Below are positions 4,970 to 63,225 of a DNA stretch of 64,000 nucleotides, piece by piece; the stretch's first letter is position 1; the number at the start of each line of letters is the position of its first letter. Origin of the DNA: Botrimarina mediterranea (GTDB taxonomy: Bacteria > Planctomycetota > Planctomycetia > Pirellulales > Lacipirellulaceae); NCBI RefSeq assembly GCF_007753265.1, contig NZ_CP036349.1:4745363-4809362 (forward strand), in the 5' to 3' direction. Under the pieces are notes generated by a model, which worked only from the letters and a program-made list of their open reading frames with translations, did no database searches and was not told the origin of the DNA. The translations under genes were made by a program, and so were the position numbers.

Positions 4970-5809
4970 ATGCCCCTCAACTGCCGGTTGATCATCGACG
5001 AGCCCGCTGACGGCGCCTGGAACATGGCGGTCGATGAGGCGCTCGTTGAGAGCGCCGTGGCCGAGGGCGTGGCCACCTTGCGGCTGTATCAGTGGCGTCC
5101 CACCCTCTCGCTAGGGTACTTCCAAAAGTACGCCGAGCGAGAGTCGCACGCCGCGAGCGCCGCCCTGCCGTGCGTGCGGCGGTCGAGCGGTGGTGGGGCG
5201 CTGGTGCATGACCGTGAGTTGACCTACTCGCTCGCGCTACCGGCGACGGCGCTGACGGGCGTCGATACGCGAAGCCTCTACTGCCAGGCGCACAAGGCAG
5301 TGATCGCGGCGGTCGCGGAACTGGGGGGCGACGCCTCGCGGTTGTCGCTCTGCGACCCCGAGAAGCAGCCCCGGCCCGAACGGGAGCCCTTCCTCTGCTT
5401 CCAGCGGCGGGCGGACGGCGACCTGCTGGTGGAAGGCCCCTTCCCGGACCAACAGGAGTCCCAGGAGGACGCGATAGGCGAACCCCGCCCCAGTGCTATG
5501 GCGGCGGGGGCCATCCGGGGCCGATACAAGGTCTGTGGCAGCGCCCAGCGGAAGCGCCGCGGGGCCCTGCTGCAACACGGCGGCGTCCTGCTGGCCCAGT
5601 CGCCCGCGGCGCCAGAACTGCCTGGGCTGGCCGAGTTGGGCGTCCTCGCCGTCAATCCGGCGGAGCTGGCGCCCGTGCTAGCCGGGCGCCTGGAAGTCGC
5701 CCTCGACCTTAGCTGCCAGCTGGGAGTCTTGCGGCCAACCGAAGCCGCGACTGCCCGGCGGATCGTTGCGGACAAGTACGGCGCCGATGCCTGGCTACGG
5801 CGGCACTAA
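4970..5809 (+). CDS. Lipoate-protein ligase / octanoyltransferase family protein (LplA/LipM-like)
   Basis: A 279-residue BPL/LPL-fold enzyme that should attach octanoate or lipoate to carrier lysines, here most obviously GcvH. Visible motifs are RRSSGGGALVHD near residue 70, the conserved Cys143 in the FLCF segment (the acyl-binding cysteine of LipM-type octanoyltransferases), and KVCGSAQRKRRGALLQHG with Lys187 and the LipM-style GSAQR.R.GA.LQHG signature. About 28 Pro/Gln/Glu/Ala-rich residues (about 155-183) are inserted just before that lysine, where relatives have a short loop. Whether it acts as ligase or transferase cannot be decided from sequence alone. Confidence 0.85.
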   Translation: MPLNCRLIIDEPADGAWNMAVDEALVESAVAEGVATLRLYQWRPTLSLGYFQKYAERESHAASAALPCVRRSSGGGALVHDRELTYSLALPATALTGVDTRSLYCQAHKAVIAAVAELGGDASRLSLCDPEKQPRPEREPFLCFQRRADGDLLVEGPFPDQQESQEDAIGEPRPSAMAAGAIRGRYKVCGSAQRKRRGALLQHGGVLLAQSPAAPELPGLAELGVLAVNPAELAPVLAGRLEVALDLSCQLGVLRPTEAATARRIVADKYGADAWLRRH

Positions 5810-6224
5810 AAAAACCGAGAGAAACCGACGCAGAATCACTGTCCCCGGCTTGCTAACAGAGGCAGCATTCCTGCTATGCTGGGAATTGGGTGGAAACTTC
5901 TCGTCACGGCAGCCCTCTCTCGGGGGGCGTGCCGGCGGTAGGTTCTGCCGCAATCCTCGCCAGACGCGAGCCATCGCTGCTGTCGCTACGTACAAATAGG
6001 TGTTGAGAGGAACAGTGCCGGCCCCTCCCAGGGACCGGGGAACCGGGCCACACGCCGGAACCGTGTGGCCGACACGAGATGAGGTGAACCCCCCGATGCC
6101 AACGAGCCGTCGCCATGTAAGGCGCCGGTTGACCGAACCTCCGCACTATTCGCTGAGAGTCCGCCGCAAGGCCCTCCTCTGACTCCCAGCCCGCCGTGCG
6201 TGTTCGAACTGGAGGAATCACGAC
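5810..6224. other. 415-bp spacer upstream of the FHA gene
   Basis: No convincing gene was found. It contains a perfect 8-bp hairpin GGCCACAC/GTGTGGCC at 6046-6070 within a GC-rich stretch, and a weak promoter-like pair TTGCTA (5850) and TATGCT (5875) with a 19-bp spacer. A structured 5' leader of the FHA gene is possible. No known riboswitch signature was recognised. Confidence 0.35.
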
Positions 6225-6947
6225 ATGAAGTTGGTGGTGCTAGCTGGAGCCAAGACGGGCGCGGCAGTCCCGATCAAGAAAGACCGATTTATCATCGGCC
6301 GGGGCAAGGACTGCACCCTGCGGGCAGGGAGTGAAGCGATCAGCCGCAACCATTGCGAGCTGCTCGTGACCGAGTCGGGCGTCACCGTCCGCGACATGGG
6401 GAGCCGCAACGGCACCTACGTCAACGACGAGAAGATCGAAGGCGTCAAGACGCTCTCCAACGGTGACAAGCTGCGGATCGGCCCGCTCGAGTTCCGCTAC
6501 GAAGCCGAGGGCGAGCTCAAGCAAGCCAAGGCGCCGAAGGTGAAGAGCGTCGGAGAAGCCGTCGCGCGTACCGCGGCGAAGGCCACCAAAGAGCCCCAGA
6601 ACTTCGAAGACGACATCAGCGACTGGTTGATCGCCGGCGAGGTCCCCACCGGCGCGGCGCCCGCCATCGGCGAGACGCTGATGATGAAGTCCGACGAGAC
6701 CCGCATCTCGCAGGAGACCGCCGACAAGATCGCCGCCGAAACGCCGACCAAGGAGCTCTCTCCCGAAGAAGCCAAGTCTGCCGAGGAGTCCGCTGAGGAC
6801 GCGGCTGAAGAGCCCGAAGCCGAAGGCGACGACAAGAAGAAAAAGAAGGGGCCCGGCAAACTCCCCTTCCAACCCCACAAGCCGCAGGCCAAAGACAGCC
6901 GCGAAGCGGCCATGCAGGTCCTCCGCGATATGGCCCGGCGTCGCTAG
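6225..6947 (+). CDS. FHA domain protein with a charged tail
   Basis: A 240-residue cytosolic protein. Residues about 1-90 form an FHA domain: IGRGKDCTLRAGS, then SRNHCELLV, then MGSRNGTYVND, the usual phosphothreonine-binding loops. The rest is a low-complexity Lys/Glu/Ala tail with a KKKKKGPGKLPFQ segment and a C-terminal DMARRR. It probably binds a phosphorylated partner, plausibly a substrate of a Ser/Thr kinase such as the one at 17218-18729, though that link is inference. The start has a good GGAGG ribosome site ten bases upstream. Confidence 0.85.
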   Translation: MKLVVLAGAKTGAAVPIKKDRFIIGRGKDCTLRAGSEAISRNHCELLVTESGVTVRDMGSRNGTYVNDEKIEGVKTLSNGDKLRIGPLEFRYEAEGELKQAKAPKVKSVGEAVARTAAKATKEPQNFEDDISDWLIAGEVPTGAAPAIGETLMMKSDETRISQETADKIAAETPTKELSPEEAKSAEESAEDAAEEPEAEGDDKKKKKGPGKLPFQPHKPQAKDSREAAMQVLRDMARRR

Positions 6948-6983
6948 GACCCTGCCGCGATAGGAATTAGACGCGCTCAACGT

Positions 6984-7262
6984 ATGAAGTCGAACGGCCC
7001 CCGCAAGAAGAAACCCACCGAACAGAAAGACGTGACGCCGCAGGTGGCGGGCGTTCTCGGTGTCGGCCTCGACGCGACCGACGGCCACAAGCGCCTCACA
7101 CGCGGCCAGGACTTCCTCCTCGCCGGCGGGTCCGAAGAGACCCACTCACGGATGCAAGAGACCATGATCAAGGTTACCGAGAAGCTCGGCGACCGCGGCA
7201 AGCGCATCCGCGACGCCTCGCCCGAAGAGCTGCGGGATTTGATTGGCGAGGCTTCGAGCTAG
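6984..7262 (+). CDS. Conserved small hypothetical protein
   Basis: A 92-residue protein beginning MKSNGPRKKKPTEQKD and containing VAGVLGVGLDATDGHKRLTRGQDFLLAGGSEE, then a helical Lys/Arg/Glu-rich C-terminus ending LRDLIGEASS. There is no signal peptide or membrane helix. It lies 36 bp downstream of the FHA gene on the same strand and is probably co-transcribed. The family was not recognised; codon use and composition look native. Confidence 0.7.
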   Translation: MKSNGPRKKKPTEQKDVTPQVAGVLGVGLDATDGHKRLTRGQDFLLAGGSEETHSRMQETMIKVTEKLGDRGKRIRDASPEELRDLIGEASS

Positions 7263-50670: not shown

Positions 50671-51096
50671 CTAGAGCCAAGCGTTCTTCTTGGCGTCGGG
50701 GTGATCGAGGATCAGAGCGAGAAGATCCGCGGTGCTGCAGTGAGACTCGATCGGATGTCGCAACGGATGACCGCTCTTCACACGGTAGTGGTTGCGACGG
50801 CCCACTTTCTCACGCTCGATGAATCCCTCCTCTTCGAGGTCGGAAAGGATCTGCTGGATCGCACGTTCGGTGATTCCGACCCGAGCGGCAATCTCCCGCA
50901 ATGCGAGGTCGGGCTCCGCATTGAGCAAGATCAGGACATGCGAGTGGTTCGTCAAGAACGTCCAGCGGCGCCGAGCTTCTGAGCCGGACTTCTTCGCCGG
51001 GACTGCTTCCGGTGAGCGGGATGCGCTCGGGCTCGATGTTTTTTGGGGCTCGCCTTTTTCCTCAGCAGCGCGGCCCATCGCTCTCTTCTTCGGCAT
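50671..51096 (-). CDS. Winged-helix transcription regulator, divergent from dabBA
   Basis: A 141-residue protein from ATG 51096. The first 45 residues are a disordered Lys/Ser/Pro/Glu tail. Residues about 50-110 form a winged helix: NHSHVLILLNAEPDLALREIAARVGITERAIQQILSDLEEEGFIEREKVGRRNHYRV (MarR/IclR-like). It lies head to head with the dabB promoter 130 bp away and is therefore the likely regulator of the dab/cys cluster; the signal is unknown (no metal or sensor motif is visible). Confidence 0.8.
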   Translation of the reverse strand: MPKKRAMGRAAEEKGEPQKTSSPSASRSPEAVPAKKSGSEARRRWTFLTNHSHVLILLNAEPDLALREIAARVGITERAIQQILSDLEEEGFIEREKVGRRNHYRVKSGHPLRHPIESHCSTADLLALILDHPDAKKNAWL

Positions 51097-51222
51097 CAAG
51101 TTGCTTCAGCTCTAGGGGGGGCGGCTTCGACCTCCGGTCGCTGGTAGGAGAGAGCCCCCCGGAGTCAGTAGGGCCGCCTCAAACCATCTTATCGAAAAGT
51201 GGGCTAAACACCAGAAGCTCAA

Positions 51223-51293: not shown

Positions 51294-52883
51294 ATGACGA
51301 CCATCGTGTTGGTTTCGCTGATTTCCTCGGCGTTTATGCTGTTTCTCTTCGGAGCGGCGCCATCCGCAGCATGTAATCGACGGCCGGTAGCGATCCGGAG
51401 CGCCGTCACATTGCTTGCCGGTTGGCAGTCGGGATTGGCGTTGATCGCGATGCTTGGCCGCCTGTCGGGCGTGGTCGATCCGATTGCGGAGCTGCGGTGG
51501 CCACCGGTGGGACCGCTCGCTTGCGGCGTCTTCCTGGATGGCGTCTCGGGCCTAGTTTTCCTGCTGGTCAGTTTCATTGGGCTCATCGTATGCCAGTACT
51601 CAATCCGTTACCTCGATGGCGACCCGCGGCAGGGCGACTACTTCCGCTGGGTCGCGGCGACGATTGGCAGCGTCTCATTGCTGGTGCTGTCGGGCAACTT
51701 GCTCATGTTGGTGTTGGCCTGGGTCGCCACCAGCCTCTCGCTCCACCAGCTGCTGCTGCACTACCCAGGGCGTAGCGGTGCGCGGCGGGCCGCCTGGAAG
51801 AAGTTCGCCATCAGCCGTGCGGGCGACATTTTCCTCGTCGTAGCACTCCTTCTAGCGTTCCGCGAATTCGCAACGTTCGATCTTTCCGCTATCTTCGCGG
51901 CCGTCGCGCCCGGCCAAGTTCTCTCTGCCGAGCGCGATAGCACGCTAGCTTGGGTTAGTTGGCTGGTCGTTCTGGGTGGGATCACCAAGTCGGCGCAGTT
52001 CCCGCTGCATAGTTGGCTACCCGAGACGTTGGAGACTCCGACCCCGGTCTCAGCTTTGATGCACGCCGGGGTGGTGAACGCCGGCGGCTATTTGATTATC
52101 CGGCTGAGCCCGCTCTTGGTTCACCAATCGTCAGCTCTCGACCTATTGACGGTGGTGGGGACAGCGACAGCGGCTTATGGGGGGGTCGTCATGCTGACGC
52201 AGTCGAGCGTAAAGAAGGCCCTCGCGTATTCGACGGTCGCACAGATGGGCTTCATGATGCTCCAGTGTGGACTCGGCGCCTTTTCAGCCGCCATGCTTCA
52301 CCTTGTCTCCCACTCACTCTACAAGGCGTACGCCTTCCTCAATAGCGGCAATGTCCTTAAGGACGAACGCGCCAGCCGAGTCGTCGCTGAACTGAACTCC
52401 GCCCGTCGTTTACGTCTAACCCAGTTGCCGCTGATTGCTGCGGCGTCGATTGTCGGCTCTTGCCTTATCGCATGGTTGATGGGCTTCGACGTTTCCTCCA
52501 AGCCTGGCGGTTACGCGCTGGCCGCTATCTTCTGCTTGGCGCTGACGATGGGTATCTGGGAATCGTTGAAAATCCCCCGACAAACGATCCGCCGTACGGC
52601 GGCCTTGGCCGCCGCAGGCCTAACCGTTCTCTACATCAGCGGCTACCTCGCGATCGACTCTCTGGTCGGCGCCAATGTGGCTCACTTTCCGTCGGATGGG
52701 AGGCCCTCGATCGCCGGGGGTGTCGTTGTCATCGCCTTCTTTGGGCTCGCTGCGCTGCAAGTCTTACTGCGACTTCCGGCGGCGCATCGCCGGCGCGACG
52801 CCCTCTACGTTCATGCAATCAACGGCTTCTACGTCGATGCGGCGATCCTACGTGTCGCTGGACCGCGCTTGTCGAAGAGATGA
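51294..52883 (+). CDS. dabB: Inorganic carbon uptake complex membrane subunit DabB
   Basis: A 529-residue NuoL/MrpA-like membrane protein with about 13 hydrophobic segments. The start MTTIVLVSLISSAFMLFLFG follows an AT-rich promoter. The proton-translocating antiporter-like core is seen in FLDGVSGLVFLLVSFIGLIVCQYSIRYL, KKFAISRAGDIFLVVALLLA, GGITKSAQFPLHSWLPETLETPTPVSALMHAGVVNAGGYL, SVKKALAYSTVAQMGFMM and HLVSHSLYKAYAFLNSG. In DAB complexes this subunit couples a cation gradient to CO2/bicarbonate accumulation by DabA. It overlaps dabA by four bases (ATGA). Confidence 0.93.
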   Translation: MTTIVLVSLISSAFMLFLFGAAPSAACNRRPVAIRSAVTLLAGWQSGLALIAMLGRLSGVVDPIAELRWPPVGPLACGVFLDGVSGLVFLLVSFIGLIVCQYSIRYLDGDPRQGDYFRWVAATIGSVSLLVLSGNLLMLVLAWVATSLSLHQLLLHYPGRSGARRAAWKKFAISRAGDIFLVVALLLAFREFATFDLSAIFAAVAPGQVLSAERDSTLAWVSWLVVLGGITKSAQFPLHSWLPETLETPTPVSALMHAGVVNAGGYLIIRLSPLLVHQSSALDLLTVVGTATAAYGGVVMLTQSSVKKALAYSTVAQMGFMMLQCGLGAFSAAMLHLVSHSLYKAYAFLNSGNVLKDERASRVVAELNSARRLRLTQLPLIAAASIVGSCLIAWLMGFDVSSKPGGYALAAIFCLALTMGIWESLKIPRQTIRRTAALAAAGLTVLYISGYLAIDSLVGANVAHFPSDGRPSIAGGVVVIAFFGLAALQVLLRLPAAHRRRDALYVHAINGFYVDAAILRVAGPRLSKR

Positions 52884-55582
52884 CGACGATGACCGCCTCC
52901 TACGGCAGCATTCCTTCACTTAGCCCGGGACCAAACATGTGCACGACCATTGCGGCTGAGCCTTACGGACGCGAGGTGAAGGCCGAGCGTCCCTCCGATC
53001 CTCATCAGGTGGCGGCAGAGGCGTTGCGCGGCTTGGCGGAAACAATCGCGCCGGTATGGCCACTCGCCGACTACGTCGCCGTCAATCCCTACATGGGATT
53101 GACGGGAACCGACTTCTTGACGGCTCGTGAGTGGTTGCGGGGAGTTTCCGATTGTGAGCTGTTGATGCCGCTCACCTACTATCGACAGCGGTTCGTCGAT
53201 GGCTATTTCGGCCGCGCCGAGATTGAGTTGGCGATCGACGAACTCGTCGATGCGGACGTCGAAGGCGCCGAGCTGATAACGGGCGGGATGCTAGAACAGC
53301 TGCTAAAAGCGTTGCCTTCCGAAGAAGCCGCGGCGTCAGGCGAGGAGACATCGAGGCGAGCCTCTCGTATCCGATCGATTTCCGCTGCCTACGACCTTTA
53401 CGCTGACGCTTCGTGGACCCTCCGAATCCATGAAGAGATCGGTAAGCATTGCGCGGCCCACTATGACGGTGGACAAGCGTCTTGGTTGAGTCCGTGGAAA
53501 GAGCAGTCGTTGTATGCCGCGTGGCGTTCCGCGATGCGCCACGACCGACGCCTGGAGGTGCTGGGGCTATCCGGCGTAAGGGCGCTCGTCAGCGGTCTTC
53601 CCGCCGATACTACGACGGCCGTGGTTGAATTGCTAGAGGTCTCTGGTGTGCCCCAAGCGCTCTGGCGAGAGTACCTGCTCTGCCTAGCGTACGAGCTTCC
53701 CGGCTGGAGCGCGTGGACTCAGTATCAATCGGCTTGGCGGGAGGGGACCGAGGCTCGGGTTGGCGACGCGGAGGGAGACGATCTCTTCGGTCTGGTCGCG
53801 ATGCGCCTCGCCTACGATATCGCTGTAGCGAAGCGATTTAACTTTTCGATGGACATCTCCGGCATGCTTCCATTGTCGACGCGGGGCGGGGCAGTCGCCA
53901 CCGGAGCGCCTGGCGCTGAGGCGCTCGTTCGGTATGCCTTACTGCGCGCCTCGGAAATCGCCTATCGCAACGGTCTCCTGAGCAAGGTGTCAGCGACTCC
54001 CTCTGTCGAAGATGGTGCGGACTCCGCTGACGACGTCGCAGGGACCAAGGTGCGTGGAGCCCGGAAACTCGCTCAGGTAGCGTTCTGCATCGATGTGCGC
54101 TCGGAGCGGATACGTCGTCACCTCGAGATGGCTGGCGATCAAATCGAGACAATCGGCTTCGCCGGCTTTTTTGGTCTGCCATTCGCCTTCCAACGCCTCG
54201 GCGAATCGGTAAAATCCAATCAGCTGCCCGTTCTCGTGCGACCCCAATTCACGGTTGCGGAACATCTGCGTTCGGTGCCCACTGATCAGCAGAAGGCAGC
54301 CTGGAGCCGGCGGAACTTCGCACGAGTTGCGCGTAAGGCATGGAAGCGATTCCAAACCGCGTCCGTCAGCGCCTTCGCATGCGTCGAAGCCACTGGCTTA
54401 TTGTTCGGCGCCAAACTGCTGCGGCGAGTCGTTGGGCGCAGTGCCGGCTCGATCGAGCCGCAGTACGACGGTGTCGCCTGCGCGCAGCGTGACCGGCTCG
54501 CCCCTGATCTAGCAAGTCTCGAATCGCAGGGCCTGACGAAGGATCGACAAGCCGACTTGGCGGCGTCGATTCTCACGGGCATGGGGCTGCGGACGGGCTT
54601 CGCTAGACTCGTCGTCTTCTGTGGGCATGGGAGCAAAACGGAGAACAATCCGCTCGCAGCGGGGCTCGATTGTGGAGCGTGCGGCGGCCATTCCGGCGAA
54701 CCGAACGCACGCTTGGCCGCGCAGCTGCTCAATAACCCTGCGGTCCGCAAACAACTAATCGCGAAAGGGTTCGAGCTCTCCACAGAGGTCCATTTCCTCG
54801 CGGGGCTACACAGCACGACAACCGATGAGATTCGCTTCTTTGACCTCGACCTCGTGCCACCGTCCCATCGGCAGGATGTGGAAGAACTCCGTGCTGCGGC
54901 GAACACCGCCGCCAATGCAACCCGGTTAGATAGGCTGCCGCTACTCTCAACTGCGAGGGCGAGCGAGCCATTCCGGCGGGCGCAGGACTGGTCAGAGGTG
55001 CGGCCTGAATGGGGGCTTACCGGCAATGCCGCCTTCATCGTGGGGCCGCGCAGCCTGACTACTTCGATCTCGCTCGAAGGCCGCGCCTTCCTGCATAACT
55101 ACGATCATAATAAGGACCCCGATGGGAAGGTGCTGGAGGGCATCCTGACGGCGCCGATGGTGGTGGGGAGCTGGATCAACCTCCAGTACTACGCTTCCAC
55201 GGTGGATCCCCACCATTTCGGCAGCGGCAGCAAGACGATCCATAACGTCGTGGGCCGCTTCGGCGTCTTCTCCGGCAACGGGGGAGACCTGACAACAGGC
55301 GTTCCCTGGGAGTCGGTCCACGATGGCAAGGCCTATCGACACGAGCCTCTACGACTGCTCTCGGTGGTCGCAGCGCCGCGCACCTCGATTACCGCGATCC
55401 TAGAGCGACACGGCAATGTCGAGAGCCTGGTGGTGAACGGGTGGGTTCAACTCGTGGCTATGGAGGACGGGAAGTTCTATCAGCTGACTACCCGTAAAGA
55501 CTGGCGCCCGGTAAAGCCCTATGGCCACCGAAAAGCTGCGGTCGCAGAAGTCAGATCGCGTGCTCCCATCACCATCGATTAG
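52880..55582 (+). CDS. dabA: Inorganic carbon uptake complex subunit DabA (DUF2309)
   Basis: A 900-residue cytoplasmic subunit with a beta-carbonic-anhydrase-like zinc site. The expected ligand set is visible: Cys403 and Asp405 in FCIDVRSE, His583 in CGHGSKTENNP and Cys598 in GLDCGACGG; the 15-residue His-Cys spacing equals that of characterised DabA (His524/Cys539). With DabB it hydrates CO2 to bicarbonate unidirectionally, driven by the ion gradient. Other family blocks: VNPYMGLTG near the start and the C-terminal EGRAFLHNYDH, APMVVGSWINLQYYASTVDP, and PLRLLSVVAAPR. Translationally coupled to dabB by an ATGA overlap. Confidence 0.95.
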   Translation: MTTMTASYGSIPSLSPGPNMCTTIAAEPYGREVKAERPSDPHQVAAEALRGLAETIAPVWPLADYVAVNPYMGLTGTDFLTAREWLRGVSDCELLMPLTYYRQRFVDGYFGRAEIELAIDELVDADVEGAELITGGMLEQLLKALPSEEAAASGEETSRRASRIRSISAAYDLYADASWTLRIHEEIGKHCAAHYDGGQASWLSPWKEQSLYAAWRSAMRHDRRLEVLGLSGVRALVSGLPADTTTAVVELLEVSGVPQALWREYLLCLAYELPGWSAWTQYQSAWREGTEARVGDAEGDDLFGLVAMRLAYDIAVAKRFNFSMDISGMLPLSTRGGAVATGAPGAEALVRYALLRASEIAYRNGLLSKVSATPSVEDGADSADDVAGTKVRGARKLAQVAFCIDVRSERIRRHLEMAGDQIETIGFAGFFGLPFAFQRLGESVKSNQLPVLVRPQFTVAEHLRSVPTDQQKAAWSRRNFARVARKAWKRFQTASVSAFACVEATGLLFGAKLLRRVVGRSAGSIEPQYDGVACAQRDRLAPDLASLESQGLTKDRQADLAASILTGMGLRTGFARLVVFCGHGSKTENNPLAAGLDCGACGGHSGEPNARLAAQLLNNPAVRKQLIAKGFELSTEVHFLAGLHSTTTDEIRFFDLDLVPPSHRQDVEELRAAANTAANATRLDRLPLLSTARASEPFRRAQDWSEVRPEWGLTGNAAFIVGPRSLTTSISLEGRAFLHNYDHNKDPDGKVLEGILTAPMVVGSWINLQYYASTVDPHHFGSGSKTIHNVVGRFGVFSGNGGDLTTGVPWESVHDGKAYRHEPLRLLSVVAAPRTSITAILERHGNVESLVVNGWVQLVAMEDGKFYQLTTRKDWRPVKPYGHRKAAVAEVRSRAPITID

Positions 55583-55688
55583 GCGAACGTGCCACGAGAC
55601 TGGGAGGAAGGTAGGCCTGTGTTTCGCCACATCACCCCGTACCAACACGTTAGTTAACGAATCTTGGGACTCGAAAGGGAATCTGACC

Positions 55689-56246
55689 ATGATCGCCTTC
55701 AGTGACGCGAGCGAGAGCAATCTGCATCTACAAAGACTTCAAGAAGTCTGTTTGCAGACGAACGTTCCTATCTCCTGGGTTGTGTTCGCCGATGACGATC
55801 CCGTCATGCTCCGCAGGCTAGCGGGGGCGCTTCAGAGAGAATCAGCGGTAATCTTGCCGATACCTCAAGCTCTTTGGGAGGCAGACGGTGACCTCCTGAA
55901 GGACGCTATTCTATGGCTCATAAAAGAGCGGAGAATCGCAAATTTGGCGCTCGTCGGAAACTCCGCAGCCGGCGTCCCGGTGAGCGATCCGTTTGTGACT
56001 GGCCAATCGGCGCCGCGTGAGACTACGGAGGAGCTGTTCACTCAAGTGCAGAGAGCGCAGCGATTGAAAGCGCAGGTTGAGAACCACTTTGCAAGGCAGA
56101 TCCACTCGCTCCTCGCTGTCCCTGAGATCGACTTAGCCGTGGATGGGGGCGTGCTGAGGATGCACGCCCTCTACTACCGCGATGAAAGCGGTGTCTTCGC
56201 CGCTTACGATCCCTTGACTAGTTCATTCCGGGTGTTGGTCCGTTAG
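55689..56246 (+). CDS. Beta-carbonic-anhydrase-like protein without zinc ligands
   Basis: A 185-residue protein from ATG 55689 with AAGGGA upstream. The C-terminal third follows the beta-CA pattern closely: a [21 protein letters not shown] helix, then [28 protein letters not shown], equivalent to the LHGWYYDI.TGE..AYDP ending of beta-CA. The central [22 protein letters not shown] aligns with the H-x-x-C strand (GHSGCG) but has Asn-Ser-Ala-Ala, and the C-x-D-x-R site reads FADDDPV. The only Cys is near the N-terminus, so zinc catalysis is impossible by the known mechanism. It lies 106 bp after dabA and 34 bp before cysD, apparently in one operon. Confidence 0.7.
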
Positions 56247-56280
56247 TCGTCCTCGTTCTTCCAATACCGGAGAGTTGGCC

Positions 56281-57240
56281 ATGGCAAGAGAGCTCGGGGC
56301 CCTAACGGCCGGAATCGTGACCTCTAGCGTTCGCCCCCGTGCAACGTCACACCTCGACGCCCTGGAGTCCGAAGCGATTCATATCCTGCGTGAAGTCGCA
56401 GCCGCATTTGAGAATCCCGTTCTGCTGTACTCCATCGGCAAAGACTCCTCGGTCATCTTGCATTTGATGCGGAAGGCGTTCTATCCGGGGAAGCCGCCTA
56501 TGCCGCTGCTGCATATCGACTCGACGTGGGAGTTCCGCGAGATGACGGATTTCCGTGAACGCTTCGCGCGACAACAGCTCGGCCTACGGGTCATCGTCAA
56601 AATCAATGAGGAAGGACGACGGGCCGGGGTGAATCCCTTCGACTTTGGCAGCAACGCTTACACCGAAGTGATGCGCACGCAGCCCTTGAAAGAGGCGTTG
56701 ACAGAGCACGGCTTCGACGCGGCTATCGGCGGCGGTCGCCGCGACGAAGAACGCTCGCGAGCCAAGGAACGCGTCTTCTCTTTTCGGGATCGCAATCACC
56801 GCTGGGAGCCCCGCAACCAACGACCGGAACTGTGGAATATCTACAACACTTGGCGACGCCCGGGCGAGTGCCTGCGGGTGTTTCCGCTCTCCAATTGGAC
56901 CGAGCTAGACGTTTGGCAGTACATCGAGCGAGAGCAGGCGCCACTTCCCGATCTTTACCTGGCGAAACCCCGCCCCGTCGTCATGCGTGGCGACGATCTG
57001 ATTGTCGTCGATGACGAGCGGATGCGGCTGGAGGCCGGCGAGCAACCGGAGCTGAGGACCGTCCGCTTCCGAACGCTCGGGTGCTACCCGGTCACCGGCG
57101 CGGTTGAATCCACAGCGTCGACTATTGGAGAGGTCGTTCAAGAACTCATCGAGACTCGCTACTCGGAACGGCAGGGGCGCGCGATCGACCGCGACGAGGC
57201 TTGCGCCATGGAGCGGAAGAAGCGGGAAGGCTATTTCTAA
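56281..57240 (+). CDS. cysD: Sulfate adenylyltransferase small subunit
   Basis: A 319-residue ATP-sulfurylase subunit, start at ATG 56281 with GGAGAG upstream (an in-frame TTG precedes it by two codons). PP-loop [24 protein letters not shown] near residue 50, [50 protein letters not shown], and [15 protein letters not shown] near the end. It works with CysN to adenylate sulfate to APS. It follows the dabBA/pseudo-carbonic-anhydrase genes with short gaps. Confidence 0.96.
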
Positions 57241-57324
57241 CGGCGGTCTTGATGCGTCAAGTCTCCTTCACCAGACCGACGCGTCGGCGTCGATATTCCA
57301 CGCTCTAGTAACGCGATAACTCCC

Positions 57325-59277
57325 ATGACATCCGGCACGATTGCGCCCGCGTTGAGCACCACCGCCGTCCGTCCGGTCGAGAAAGACCTCCTCCGGTTCA
57401 TCACCTGCGGGAGCGTTGACGACGGCAAGAGCACTCTGATCGGCCGCCTGATGCTCGACGTGGGGGCGGTCTACAGCGATCAGATTGCGGCGCTGCAGAT
57501 GGAGTCGGAGAAGCACGGCACCAACGGCGGTGAGATCGATACGGCTTTGCTGCTCGATGGTCTCGAAGACGAGCGGCAGCAGGGGATCACGATCGATGTG
57601 GCGTATCGGTACTTCGCTACCGAGAAGCGAAAGTTCATCATCGCGGACACACCCGGCCACGAACAATTCACCCGGAACATGGCCACGGGGGCATCGACCG
57701 CCGACCTCGCCATCCTGCTTGTGGACGCCACCAAAGGGGTTTTGACGCAGACTAAGCGACACGCGTTCATTGTCTCGCTGCTGGGGATCAAGCACGTCAT
57801 CTTGGCCGTCAACAAGATGGACTTGGTTGCCTATGATGAAGCCACCTTCGACGCCATTCGTGGTGATTTTAAGCGATTTGCGTCGAAGCTCGATATCACC
57901 GATGTGCGTTTCGTTCCACTGTCGGCCCGCCACGGAGACAACGTCGCCGAGCCCAGCGCGAGGATGCACTGGTACGAGGACGGGTCGTTGCTGCACCAGC
58001 TTGAAACCATTTATGTCGGCTCCGACCAGAACTTGCGAGACTTCCGCTTCCCGGTGCAGTGGGTCAACCGCCCCGACAACGTCTTTCGGGGGTTTAGCGG
58101 GACGATTGCATCGGGCTCTGTCCGCGTGGGTGAAGAGATCGTCGTGCTGCCTTCCGGCAAGCGTTCGCGGGTCCGCAGCATCGTCACAATGGACGGGACA
58201 CTCGATGAAGCAGCGGCGCCTCGATCGGTAACGCTAACGCTTGAGGACGAGATCGATGTCACCCGAGGGGACTACCTCTGCCGTCCGGGCAATCAGCCTC
58301 ACGTCGGCCGTACGGGAGAAGCGATGCTCGTATGGATGTCGGAGACCCCCTTGAATCAAGGGCGCCCGCTCTGGTTCAAGAACGCAGCGGGACGAGCGGT
58401 CTGCGAGGTTGAGTCGATCCGTTACGAAGTGGATGTCAATACACTCCATCGCAAGCAATCCGACACGCTGCGGCTCAACGCCATCGGCCGTTGCTCGCTC
58501 AGTTTCCACCAGCCAATCGCGTACGACGCCTACGAAAAGAACCGCAAGACCGGCGCCTTCATCCTCGTAGATCGGATCACTCACGAGACGCTCGCGGCGG
58601 GCATGTTCCTCGACTACGGTCTGTCAGGGGATCTTGCGGGAAGCGAGCCGCGGTTCTTGCCGGCACGGCGAGTCCAAAGTCCCATCGACGACAGTCATCG
58701 TTTACAGCGGTACGGGCACGAACCGTTCACCGTCCTTCTGACGGGCCTGCCCGCGTCGGGCAAGACGACGATCGCGAAGCACTTGGAGAAGAGATTGTTC
58801 AGCCGGGGCGCCGTTGGCGTGCTGCTCGATGGTGAGTCGCTGCGGCACGGGATCAGCAAGGGCCTCGGCTTCTCCAAGGAAGAGCGGTCCGAGAACCTCC
58901 GCCGCGGGGCGGAAATCGCAAAGCTTATCAACGATTCAGGGCAGTTTTGCATCGCCGCGTTCTGCGCCCCCGAAGAATCCATGCGGCAACAGTTCTGCGA
59001 AATAGTAGGCCGACACCGTGTCGTCCATGTCCACCTCGATGCTTCGGTGGCGGCGTGCCGTCTCCGAGACACAACGGGACGTTATCTGGCCGCCGATAAT
59101 GGTGAGATCTACGGCTTCCCCGGAGTGACGGCAGAATATGAGACCCCCGCCACCCCCGACCTAACGATTGTTACGGAAGAATTGATCGACCTAGAAGCTG
59201 CGGCGGGCAAGTTGATCGAGCGACTGGCGTCTGGCATTTGCAGCGGAGGCGGCAGCGTGGCGGTCGCCAAGTCTTGA
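57325..59277 (+). CDS. cysNC: Bifunctional CysNC: sulfate adenylyltransferase GTPase and APS kinase
   Basis: A 650-residue fusion. Residues 1-440 form CysN, an EF-Tu-like GTPase: FITCGSVDDGKSTLIGRLM, GITIDVAYRYF, DTPGHEQFTRNMATGAS, NKMDLV, then beta-barrels. Residues about 455-630 are APS kinase: VLLTGLPASGKTTIAKHLE, LLDGESLRHGISKGLGFSKEERSENLRRGAEIAKLI, and ATPDLTIVTE. The kinase P-loop GLPASGKT replaces the GLSGSGKS of the free CysC at 25082. Produces PAPS from sulfate with CysD. PAPS may serve reduction or sulfation; no PAPS reductase or sulfotransferase is in the window. Confidence 0.95.
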   Translation: MTSGTIAPALSTTAVRPVEKDLLRFITCGSVDDGKSTLIGRLMLDVGAVYSDQIAALQMESEKHGTNGGEIDTALLLDGLEDERQQGITIDVAYRYFATEKRKFIIADTPGHEQFTRNMATGASTADLAILLVDATKGVLTQTKRHAFIVSLLGIKHVILAVNKMDLVAYDEATFDAIRGDFKRFASKLDITDVRFVPLSARHGDNVAEPSARMHWYEDGSLLHQLETIYVGSDQNLRDFRFPVQWVNRPDNVFRGFSGTIASGSVRVGEEIVVLPSGKRSRVRSIVTMDGTLDEAAAPRSVTLTLEDEIDVTRGDYLCRPGNQPHVGRTGEAMLVWMSETPLNQGRPLWFKNAAGRAVCEVESIRYEVDVNTLHRKQSDTLRLNAIGRCSLSFHQPIAYDAYEKNRKTGAFILVDRITHETLAAGMFLDYGLSGDLAGSEPRFLPARRVQSPIDDSHRLQRYGHEPFTVLLTGLPASGKTTIAKHLEKRLFSRGAVGVLLDGESLRHGISKGLGFSKEERSENLRRGAEIAKLINDSGQFCIAAFCAPEESMRQQFCEIVGRHRVVHVHLDASVAACRLRDTTGRYLAADNGEIYGFPGVTAEYETPATPDLTIVTEELIDLEAAAGKLIERLASGICSGGGSVAVAKS

Positions 59278-59622: not shown

Positions 59623-59745
59623 ATGATTGTCCCTAGCCTACGTGAAGAGAACGTCAAGAAGATTCGAGCCGATCTCGATTTCATGGTCTGCGATAGCTCA
59701 GTACTTTGGGACACCGGCGGGACTTCGCATTTTATGCGCCGCTAG
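59623..59745 (+). pseudogene. Gene start truncated by an IS insertion
   Basis: An ATG with AAGGTG eight bases upstream opens MIVPSLREENVKKIRADLDFMVC; at 59690 the frame enters the inverted repeat of an IS3-type element and stops at 59745 after IS-derived residues. The first 23 residues look like a real charged N-terminus. No continuation was recognised on the far side of the IS. Confidence 0.5.
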
Positions 59746-60107
59746 AGCCGGGGGGTGGTCGGCTTCGAATTGATCGGGAGACTTGTAGCCGAGCGTTTGG
59801 TGACGCCGCCTGGAGTTGTAGAACGTTTCGATGTAGCGGAAGACGCTCGGCCGGGCCTCGTCCATCGTGGCGTAGGCCCTCCAATAGGTCCACTCGTGCT
59901 TGAGGCTCCAGAAGAATCGCTCGGCGACCGCGTTGTCGTAGCAGTTCCCCGTGGGGCTCATCGAGACCTCGATCCCGAGCGTTCTCAACGTCTTCTGGTA
60001 GCCGTCGCTCGTGTACTGGCAGCCGCGGTCGCTGTGATGCAAGAGCTCGCCGTGCCTGGGCCGCCGTTTCTCGACCCCGCCGGTGTCCGAAAGTACTGGG
60101 CTATCGC
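59690..60107 (-). mobile_element. Internally deleted IS3-family element with both inverted repeats
   Basis: Terminal inverted repeats of 32 bp at 59690-59721 and 60076-60107 (GCGATAGC.CAGTACTTT.G...) with two mismatches. Between them only the C-terminal third of the OrfB transposase remains on the minus strand. OrfA and the first half of OrfB are missing and the right repeat abuts the coding remnant. At 418 bp with intact ends it is MITE-like and could be moved by a full-length relative. No target duplication was seen. Confidence 0.85.
59698..60060 (-). pseudogene. IS3 transposase OrfB, C-terminal remnant
   Basis: rve-type catalytic domain fragment: ELLHHSDRGCQYTSDGYQ (second catalytic Asp), GNCYDNAVAERFFWSLKHE (catalytic Glu), then RYIETFYNSRRRHQTLGYKSP. 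The first Asp and the helper OrfA are absent, so the product is inactive. It ends at the TGA within the left inverted repeat. Confidence 0.88.
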
Positions 60108-60945
60108 CCAAACACTCCGGAGTTGTTCCACCGCCTTCTCGCGGAAGTACCGCCACAGGATCGACGCTAAGCCTGCGAATCCGAGGACGGCGAACGCCGA
60201 TGGTTTTGAGTGAGGCTGAGACACGGGGCGAAAGCGCCCTCCTAGAGTAATGCCATCGACTCAGCGCGAGCCTCCGTTACGAAGTTGACGTATCGTAGGC
60301 TATCGGGCGGTTGCTTTGCGACTGGAGATACCGCCAAGTGCGTCGCAGCTGTCAAGGAAAGCGTTGATACTTCTTGAGTTACTAGCCGGCGGTCTTGCCG
60401 ATTCTCTTCTGAAGTCGCGGGGCTTGCTCTCGCCTGCCCTGTACTGGAATGCTCGGCGGGGACGATGTCAGTTGAGCAACCGCCAACTGATCTGCAAGAA
60501 ACTCCCTCCTGGGCTAGCGGACCATCAAAGTTGGTCCAAGGCGATGCAGCGCGCGTTGTGTAGGGTGTTCAATCCGGTGAAATCCCCATGCTGCGACAAC
60601 TTTTCGCAGCGCTCGTTAACGACTACTCGCCACCCGCCACCATGCTTCCCGCCGTCGCAATGGCTGGCTGCTCTTGACTTGCAATCACGGCAAGACCTTC
60701 CGCGCTAAGACCTTACGACCCCGACGGTAATCATTCACTCGGCGTCGCGCCGATTGTGCGGCTCCGGTTCACCACGGCGGGGACCGACAAGCCAACGGAC
60801 TCGACAGGGGTATGGTACCCACGAGTACAATTAAGGCTGATCAATCGAGAGTGATTCTTGGCTGATCCGGCTAGGAGATCCCGGTTCACGTTCCGCGCGG
60901 CTCTTTGGACGGGCCGCCTGGGAACGACCAGCAAAGGAGACCGCC
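60108..60945. other. Degraded 840-bp stretch before pflB
   Basis: No intact gene. On the minus strand near 60130-60215 the text KPSAFAVLGFAGLASILWRYFR resembles a decayed PEP-CTERM tail, but no gene body leads into it. A 130-codon ORF at 60316-60708 has Ser/Leu/Arg-rich shadow-like composition and is not annotated. A promoter candidate for pflB is listed separately. Confidence 0.4.
60801..60831 (+). promoter_or_regulatory. Candidate pflB promoter with palindrome
   Basis: TCGACA (60801-60806), 19-bp spacer, TACAAT (60826-60831). The spacer contains GGGTA-TGG-TACCC (60808-60820), a perfect 5-bp dyad that could be an operator overlapping the promoter. It leaves a leader of about 110 nt before pflB. 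Confidence 0.4.
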
Positions 60946-63225
60946 ATGCACGCCACTTCGGCTGTACTCACCCCCCCTCTCCCCGTGAGCCGGCCGCAAT
61001 CTCTCGACCCTTACCGGGGATTCGTCCCGGGAGGGTGGTCGCAAGAGGTCAATGTCCGCGACTTCATCCAGCAGAACTACCAGCCTTACGACGGCGACGC
61101 CTCGTTTCTCGCCGGCCCCACCGATCGCACCCGCCACTTGTGGAGCAAGCTATTGGAGCTCTTCGTCGTTGAACGCCAGCGTGGCGTGCTGGGGGTCAGC
61201 CAAACTCCTTCGTCGATTACCGCCCACGGGCCGGGGTACATCGACAAGGACTCCGAGATCATCGTCGGCCTTCAAACCGACGCGCCACTGAAGCGAGCCA
61301 TCTTCCCGAACGGCGGTTGGCGGATGGTCGTCAGCTCGCTGAAGGCCTACGGCTACGAGCCTGAACGAGCGGTCGCGGAGGTCTTCACCAAGTATCGCAA
61401 GACCCACAACGACGGCGTGTTCGATGTTTATACGCCCGACATCCGGAAGGCGCGGAGCACCCACCTCGTTACGGGGCTGCCCGACGCATATGGTCGCGGC
61501 CGGATTATCGGCGATTACCGCCGTGTCCCGTTGTACGGCGTCGATCGGTTGATCGAGGCCAAGAACGCAGAGAAGGCCTCACTTGACGAAAAGCACTCGA
61601 CCGAGGCAGTGATCCGCGACCGCGAGGAGCTCTCCGAACAAGTCAGGGCGCTCCACGAGCTGAAGCAGATGGCGGCCGACTACGGGTTCGACGTTTCGCG
61701 TCCGGCGCGCAACGCCCGCGAAGCTGTGCAGTGGCTCTACTTCGCCTACCTCGCGGCGGTGAAGGAGCAGAACGGCGCGGCGATGAGCCTAGGCCGCACC
61801 AGCACGTTCCTCGACGTCTACTTTCAACGCGACCTTGCCGAAGGGACGCTCACGGAGGAAGAGGCCCAAGAGATCATCGACGACTTCGTCATCAAGCTGA
61901 GGATCGTCCGGTTCTTGCGGACCCCAGAGTATGACGGTCTCTTTAGCGGCGATCCCACTTGGGTCACCGAGGCGATTGGAGGCGTCGGCGCCGATGGCCG
62001 ACCGCTGGTGACCAAGAACAGCTTTCGCCTCCTCAACACGCTCTACAACCTCGGCCCGGGGCCAGAACCGAACATGACGGTACTCTGGAGCAAGGCGCTG
62101 CCGGAGGGGTTTAAACAGTTCTGCGCGAAGGTCAGTATCGACACCTCGAGCGTCCAGTACGAGTCGGACGACCAACTGCGTGCGGTCACCGGGGACGACA
62201 GCGCCATCGCCTGCTGTGTTTCCGGCATGGAGATGGGCAAGTCGATGCAGTTCTTCGGCGCCCGGGTAAACCTCGCGAAGTGCCTGCTGTACGCCATCAA
62301 TGGCGGTCGCGACGAGATAACCGGTGAGCAAGTCATGCCCCCCTTCGATCCTTGCCGGGGAGAGGTCCTCGACTACAACGAGGTGATGCAGCGGTTCGAT
62401 GTAGCGATGGAGTGGTTGGCCCGCGTTTACGTCAACGCGATGAACTGCATCCACTACATGCACGACAAGTACGCGTACGAGCGTGTCGAAATGGCGCTGC
62501 ACGACTACGCCCCAAGGCGGACGATGGCGTTCGGCATCGCCGGTCTGTCGGTGGTGGCCGACTCGCTCAGCGCGATCAAGAACGCGCGGGTGTGGCGTTA
62601 CGGCGACGAGACCGGCCTGACCACCGACTACCGCGTCGAGGGCGAGTTCCCCGCCTTCGGCAACAACGATGATGAGGTGGATGGCTATGCCGCCTGGCTG
62701 GTCCGTGCCTTCATGGAAAAGCTCCGCAAGCACCCCACCTACCGCAACGCGGAGCACACCCAGTCGGTGCTGACCATCACCAGCAATGTTGTCTACGGCA
62801 AGAACACCGGCAGCACTCCTGACGGCCGCAAGGCCGGTGAACCCTTCGCCCCCGGCGCCAACCCGATGCACGGCCGCGACGTCGAGGGCTATGTCGCCAG
62901 CGCGCTGTCGGTCGCCAAGCTGCCGTACGAAGCGGCTCGCGACGGCATCTCCCTGACCCACACTGTGATCCCCTCGGCGCTGGGCTCCTGCGAGGAGGAC
63001 CGCGTCGCTAATCTCGCCGCTTGTCTCGACGGATACTTCGGCTGCGGCGGCTTCCATATGAACGTCAATGTGCTCGACCGTGAGACTTTGCTCGACGCGA
63101 TGGAGCATCCCGAAAGGTATCCGCAGCTGACCGTGCGGGTGAGCGGCTATGCGGTCAATTTCGTGAAGCTTACGCCCGAGCAGCAGCAAGACATCGTTAG
63201 CCGCACCTTCCACGAGAAGCTTTGA
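60946..63225 (+). CDS. pflB: Formate C-acetyltransferase (pyruvate formate-lyase)
   Basis: A 759-residue glycyl-radical enzyme converting pyruvate and CoA to acetyl-CoA and formate under anoxia. The catalytic pair is Cys423-Cys424 in [25 protein letters not shown] (canonical PFL has CCVSPM; here Gly replaces Pro). The radical glycine is Gly734 in [10 protein letters not shown] near the C-terminus. Other blocks: [33 protein letters not shown] and [26 protein letters not shown]. Start with GGAG seven bases upstream. The activase gene follows 14 bp later. Confidence 0.96.

Follow-up and report, generated by a model that had tools for sequence, protein, structure and literature searches.

Gene content of the locus

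The window, that is, the whole stretch of 64,000 nucleotides of Botrimarina mediterranea DNA that we analysed, contains an apparent operon of five genes on the forward strand, dabB-dabA-psCA-cysD-cysNC, where psCA stands for a putative pseudo-carbonic anhydrase:

50671-51099, reverse strand: winged-helix regulator (Pfam assignment), divergent, upstream of the operon
51297-52883, forward strand: dabB, proton-conducting membrane subunit (Pfam PF00361, E = 5.6e-46)
52880-55582, forward strand: dabA (Pfam PF10070, DabA, E = 5.8e-247)
55689-56246, forward strand: psCA, 185-aa protein with a predicted beta-carbonic-anhydrase (beta-CA) fold and no zinc ligands
56281-57240, forward strand: cysD, by homology the small subunit of sulfate adenylyltransferase (Pfam PF01507, E = 5.8e-49)
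57325-59277, forward strand: cysNC, GTPase subunit fused to APS kinase (Pfam GTP_EFTU and APS_kinase)

The psCA reading frame (185 aa) runs from the ATG at 55689 to the stop codon at 56244-56246, and its start, which is preceded by CGAAAGGGAATCTGACCATG, including a purine-rich ribosome-binding-like stretch, is supported by the lengths of the homologues. The intergenic gaps measure 106 nt between dabA and psCA, 34 nt between psCA and cysD, and 84 nt between cysD and cysNC. Most related dabBA operons, and several sbtA clusters, likewise have a homologue of the winged-helix regulator next to them in divergent orientation. Past the cys genes, and before a gene that resembles pyruvate formate lyase (60946-63225), there is a transposase/integrase-like fragment (59698-60156, reverse strand). 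The genome has a separate canonical beta-CA gene at another site, so that catalysis need not come from psCA.

DabA, translated from the ATG at 52880, has Cys403, Asp405, Arg407, His583, and Cys598; the intact beta-CA-like site that the first-pass annotation had read in this protein (Cys403, Asp405, His583, and Cys598) is therefore correctly numbered for that start. The motif Cys-Ile-Asp-(Val/Thr)-Arg-Ser-Glu occurs in all 58 related DabAs examined. DAB-type CO2 pumps are widespread, pathogens included, and the DAB2 complex seen by cryo-EM has been described as DabA and DabB only (PMC13144422). A third subunit is not required for DAB. Accessory factors are of interest because the purified DAB2 complex binds CO2 and does not hydrate it alone (PMC13144422).

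Predicted fold of psCA

Taken as a single sequence, the window protein reached Pfam Pro_CA (PF00484) only at E = 0.18, with 12.5 bits against a gathering cut-off of 25.7, had no match in NCBIfam, and retrieved an unrelated protein as its top match in a PDB sequence search. These results would be expected if the fold were unrelated and the beta-CA likeness fortuitous, an explanation that is extremely improbable and refuted at the level of prediction, since the profile searches, the predicted fold, and the profile-profile comparison agree on beta-CAs. A profile built from 11 psCA members, none of which has the zinc cysteines, matched the beta-CAs 3eyx (E = 1.3e-7) and 5swc (E = 1.8e-6) among PDB sequences, and all its matches below 0.01 were beta-CAs. 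Ten of the 11 members matched Pro_CA at E ≤ 1, the best at 5e-8. Being weak in the single sequence and clear with the family profile, the similarity is more than chance. An AlphaFold2 model computed from the window protein and four homologues has moderate confidence (pLDDT 75, pTM 0.71, with residues 1-10 and 96-111 below 50 pLDDT). The best 50 Foldseek matches to this model are all beta-CAs, with probabilities of 0.99-1.00 and TM-scores of only about 0.4-0.55, which makes the fold call secure and its details not. The comparison of the psCA family with canonical planctomycete stand-alone beta-CAs by hhalign gave 96.8%. Prediction thus shows psCA to have a beta-CA fold, as the first-pass annotation had supposed from the letters alone; profile-profile comparison and structural modelling agree on this, and neither points to an unrelated fold.

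The zinc site and active-site residues

Alignment to canonical beta-CAs locates three informative segments in the window protein:

55791-55805, forward strand: D35-D36-D37-P38-V39, equivalent of the beta-CA Cys-x-Asp-x-Arg, from a gap-free alignment
55959-55970, forward strand: N91-S92-A93-A94, equivalent of the zinc His-x-x-Cys
56175-56210, forward strand: C-terminal hairpin, Y163 to D174, the best conserved stretch of the family, aligned with VYKFETGxVFAYD of canonical beta-CAs

The window psCA thus has D35, D37, V39, N91, and A94 where the catalytic C, D, R, H, and C of beta-CAs would stand. The hairpin tyrosine Y163 is invariant in the 11-member alignment and may belong to a putative bicarbonate-binding pocket. 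That Asn-Ser-Ala-Ala stands in place of the zinc His-x-x-Cys, as noted on first reading, agrees with the alignment. The companion statement that Cys-x-Asp-x-Arg is missing holds for Cys and Arg, but the Asp is retained.

Both zinc cysteines are absent from all 18 psCAs: the first is replaced by His in 12, Asp in 4, Leu in 1, and Val in 1, and the second by Ala in 9, Ser in 4, Gly in 3, and Val in 2. None of these direct homologues therefore has kept the zinc ligands, in line with the pseudoenzyme proposed initially. The catalytic Asp is retained in 16 of 18, the zinc His position is still His in 12 of 18, and the Arg of the Asp-Arg dyad, lost in the window protein (V39), persists in 4 of 18. 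We infer from these residues that the window psCA would have no carbonic anhydrase activity. Ten of the 18 members, exemplified by the L141 protein, have a His where the first Cys would be, an acidic residue at the Asp position, and the His of the zinc site, a combination that the window protein does not have; because several members keep this possible His-x-Asp...His arrangement, catalytic death is strict only for lineages like that of the window.

The same residues, strikingly non-random for a dead site, could indicate a re-tooled metal protein, in which Cys2His was swapped for His-x-Asp...His to support a different metal chemistry; the lineage of the window (D,D,N) would then have drifted further or bind nothing. 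The set is not conserved, however: D,D,N or D,D,S is found in the window protein and those nearest to it, and L,D,H or V,D,A or also H,N,S in others. Helix capping may be the reason why the Asp-Pro that starts the first helix (residues 38-47 of the model) is kept. We regard such a metal site as unlikely.

A further CA-like protein (L136, genome G052, 5736-6401, reverse strand) has CTD at the site of CSDSR and GHVPG at that of GHxxC, the Arg and the second Cys being lost.

Homologues and linkage to inorganic-carbon uptake

A whole-genome search within the GTDB family of the window organism recovered psCA relatives with 49, 46, 35, 28, and 27% identity, all located between dabA and cysD. Across 397 genomes of the order, the profile search gave 13 matches better than 1e-20, 12 of them directly downstream of dabA and one (G363) upstream of sbtA, in the order psCA-SbtA-cysD with an SbtA-type transporter (Pfam Sbt_1, E = 4e-115). 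Three metagenome-assembled genomes from an independent collection, found by pattern search, also have psCA directly after dabA. The search of the phylum added dabB-dabA-psCA in G532, psCA-IDH-SbtA in G650, where IDH is an NADP-dependent isocitrate dehydrogenase (NCBIfam), and psCA-IDH in G514, on a contig of 3.6 kb that is too short to show a transporter neighbour; G850 provides a second case of psCA-IDH-SbtA. The commonest layout is dabB-dabA-psCA, often followed by cysD-cysNC. With the single window sequence, neither the plasmid search nor a first scan of genome contigs returned a psCA relative, nor did a scan of viral contigs with the psCA alignment. A second match in the organism's own genome (L002, E = 0.04) was rejected as chance, being an EPSP-synthase-like frame.

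Linkage to dabA, whose constancy the first-pass annotation had named as a point to check, holds for most members, but some adjoin SbtA or IDH-SbtA instead. Since members also lie beside the unrelated SbtA, the partner of psCA appears to be inorganic-carbon (DIC) uptake generally and not DabA alone. A CA-like neighbour accompanies dabA in 20 of the 55 related DabA loci whose context could be read and is missing from the other 35, and one genome of the same genus possesses dabBA without psCA or cysD. The 35 loci without such a neighbour imply that psCA is dispensable and that DabAB works without it.

The IDH gene is found 3' of psCA in four loci, twice as psCA-IDH-SbtA, once as dabA-psCA-IDH-cysD (L142), and once on the short psCA-IDH contig (L148, 6567-8117; L142, 8186-9997; L149, from about 1700; L194).

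Origin and selection

In a tree computed with the ligand columns left out, the psCAs form one clade (support 97/93) nested in a transport-linked clade (100/99) that is apart from canonical CAs and also holds the G363 SbtA-linked protein, a subgroup whose genes follow cysNC (six genomes), and the G034 dabA-linked protein; the inner order of this larger clade is not safe because several branches are long. The G034 protein, encoded after dabA and more distant, keeps Cys, Asp, His, and Cys, and the G363 protein keeps D, H, and C. Two dabBA operons are present in genome G055, and next to each of them lies a different CA-like gene in which C, D, H, and C are kept. As the more distant dabA-linked relatives keep their ligands, psCA looks like a carbonic anhydrase of these clusters that lost catalysis. 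Descent from the beta-CA-like domain of DabA was considered as well and is unsupported (hhalign 0.3% against DabA versus the 96.8% against stand-alone beta-CAs).

The graded appearance of the ligand loss (C,D,H,C in G034; D,H,C in G363; D and often H in psCAs) and the absence of the gene from many loci might suggest a decaying remnant, a former cluster carbonic anhydrase without function that is being eliminated. Against this, dN/dS values of 0.25 and 0.28 in two close psCA pairs indicate purifying selection, which makes decay unlikely; the reading frame is intact in every copy read, its position is constant across genera, and the C-terminal hairpin is conserved at 25-50% identity. A relic of this kind is therefore very improbable.

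A second zinc-less CA-like subgroup is encoded directly after cysNC in the dabB-dabA-cysD-cysNC clusters of another family (L092, 6614-7246; L093, 6865-7428; L132-L135). Its second-Cys position is mostly occupied by Phe, with Glu in G130.

Sulfate-activation neighbours

In planctomycetes, genes for DIC uptake, whether DabBA or SbtA, repeatedly form clusters with cysD or with cysD-cysNC, as in L191 (G261), L091 (G363), L198 (G909), and the window itself (51297-59277). CysD is present in 17 of the 55 DabA loci, 13 of which also have a CA-like gene, versus 7 of the 38 loci without cysD (Fisher p = 6e-5); placed on the DabA tree, this association comes down to only 5 independent pairs (sign test p = 0.25). 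The psCA could accordingly be a sulfur-side protein that serves sulfate activation by CysD/CysNC, its adjacency to dabA resulting merely from the joining of clusters. Besides the uncorrected association, the cysD gene located 3' of SbtA in the G363 psCA cluster and the second zinc-less subgroup directly after cysNC would fit such a role. Yet psCA lies by dabA without cysD in G177, G101, G377, G291, and G532, and beside IDH-SbtA without cysD in G650 and G850; conversely, G024, G025, G162, and G312 have cysD loci without psCA, and only those 5 independent pairs carry the association once kinship is taken into account. We consider a role confined to sulfate activation improbable.

Related planctomycete SbtA clusters often contain a winged-helix regulator of the same kind together with a CA that has an N-terminal extension, and that of G261 also has cysD-cysNC. 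From this shared cluster context we recognize a recurrent module with two unrelated transporters, made of a regulator, a DIC transporter, and a CA or pseudo-CA, sometimes with sulfate activation. The extended beta-CA, often 3' of SbtA, has an export-signal-like N-terminus (L160, 322-1155, reverse strand; L183, L187, L196, and others) and is likely exported. Just downstream of dabA in L095 (G154, 6690-6998, reverse strand) there is a short cysN-like fragment, which suggests the erosion of a former dab-cys cluster.

Proposed role of psCA

A conserved protein of this fold, devoid of both zinc cysteines and found with either type of DIC transporter, is better explained as an accessory or regulatory component of DIC uptake than as an enzyme, as a catalytic part specific to DabA, or as a relic. 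On these sequence-based grounds, we think it slightly better than an even chance that psCA assists or regulates inorganic-carbon uptake in planctomycetes without being catalytic itself. In the first-pass annotation it had been put forward as a possible bicarbonate sensor, scaffold, or DabA regulator, roles between which sequence does not discriminate. It would descend from a stand-alone beta-CA that travelled with DIC uptake clusters and lost its zinc site. Most probably a soluble protein with a (homo)dimeric beta-CA fold, it may dock on or signal to the uptake machinery, DabAB here and SbtA in some relatives, and would tune this machinery to the carbon supply. The oligomeric state, the contact with the transporter, and regulation as opposed to a purely structural part are what we infer, as are ligand sensing by psCA and the sign of the regulation. 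A broader version, with psCA as a regulator or sensor common to DabAB and SbtA that links the supply of DIC with isocitrate dehydrogenase and with the activation of sulfate by CysD/CysNC, is tentative and rather doubtful.

A conserved pseudo-carbonic anhydrase associated with DabAB or SbtA is a concrete candidate for an accessory factor in the control of DAB-type CO2 pumps. The clade that contains psCA moreover offers a direct comparison with a relative that has intact zinc ligands.

Comparison with known systems

The psCA resembles the beta-class CAs (Pfam PF00484, Pro_CA) in its predicted fold, C-terminal hairpin, position of the catalytic Asp, and descent, whereas the window protein differs from them by the absence of the zinc Cys/His/Cys and of the dyad Arg, by a score below the Pfam cut-off, and by its divergent residues 96-111. 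SbtB, a PII-like protein that regulates the bicarbonate transporter SbtA, is small and soluble like psCA, and its gene too adjoins that of a DIC transporter. The role proposed for psCA would resemble that of SbtB, but the fold of psCA is unrelated to that of SbtB, and psCA serves clusters of either DabAB or SbtA. DabA of the DAB/MpsAB systems (PMC13144422, PMC6689103) is encoded in the same operon as psCA and also has beta-CA-like domains, but its zinc site is intact whereas that of psCA is absent, and the two have no profile similarity. In Staphylococcus aureus, the third gene, mpsC, has been reported to be dispensable and not to be collocated with mpsAB homologues outside staphylococci (PMC13144422, PMC6689103). 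Within the open-licence literature, searches on DabA with cysD or Planctomycetes and on beta-CA pseudoenzymes found no description of the psCA family or of the DIC-uptake/cysD clusters. The alpha-class CARPs and the gamma-like domain of CcmM are inactive CA relatives in which the CA fold is kept, catalysis is lost or altered, and a new non-enzymatic role has arisen; unlike psCA, they belong to other CA classes and are not tied to DabAB or SbtA operons. Inactive relatives are thus known in other CA classes, and a conserved one of the beta class tied to DIC uptake operons is new with respect to the literature searched.
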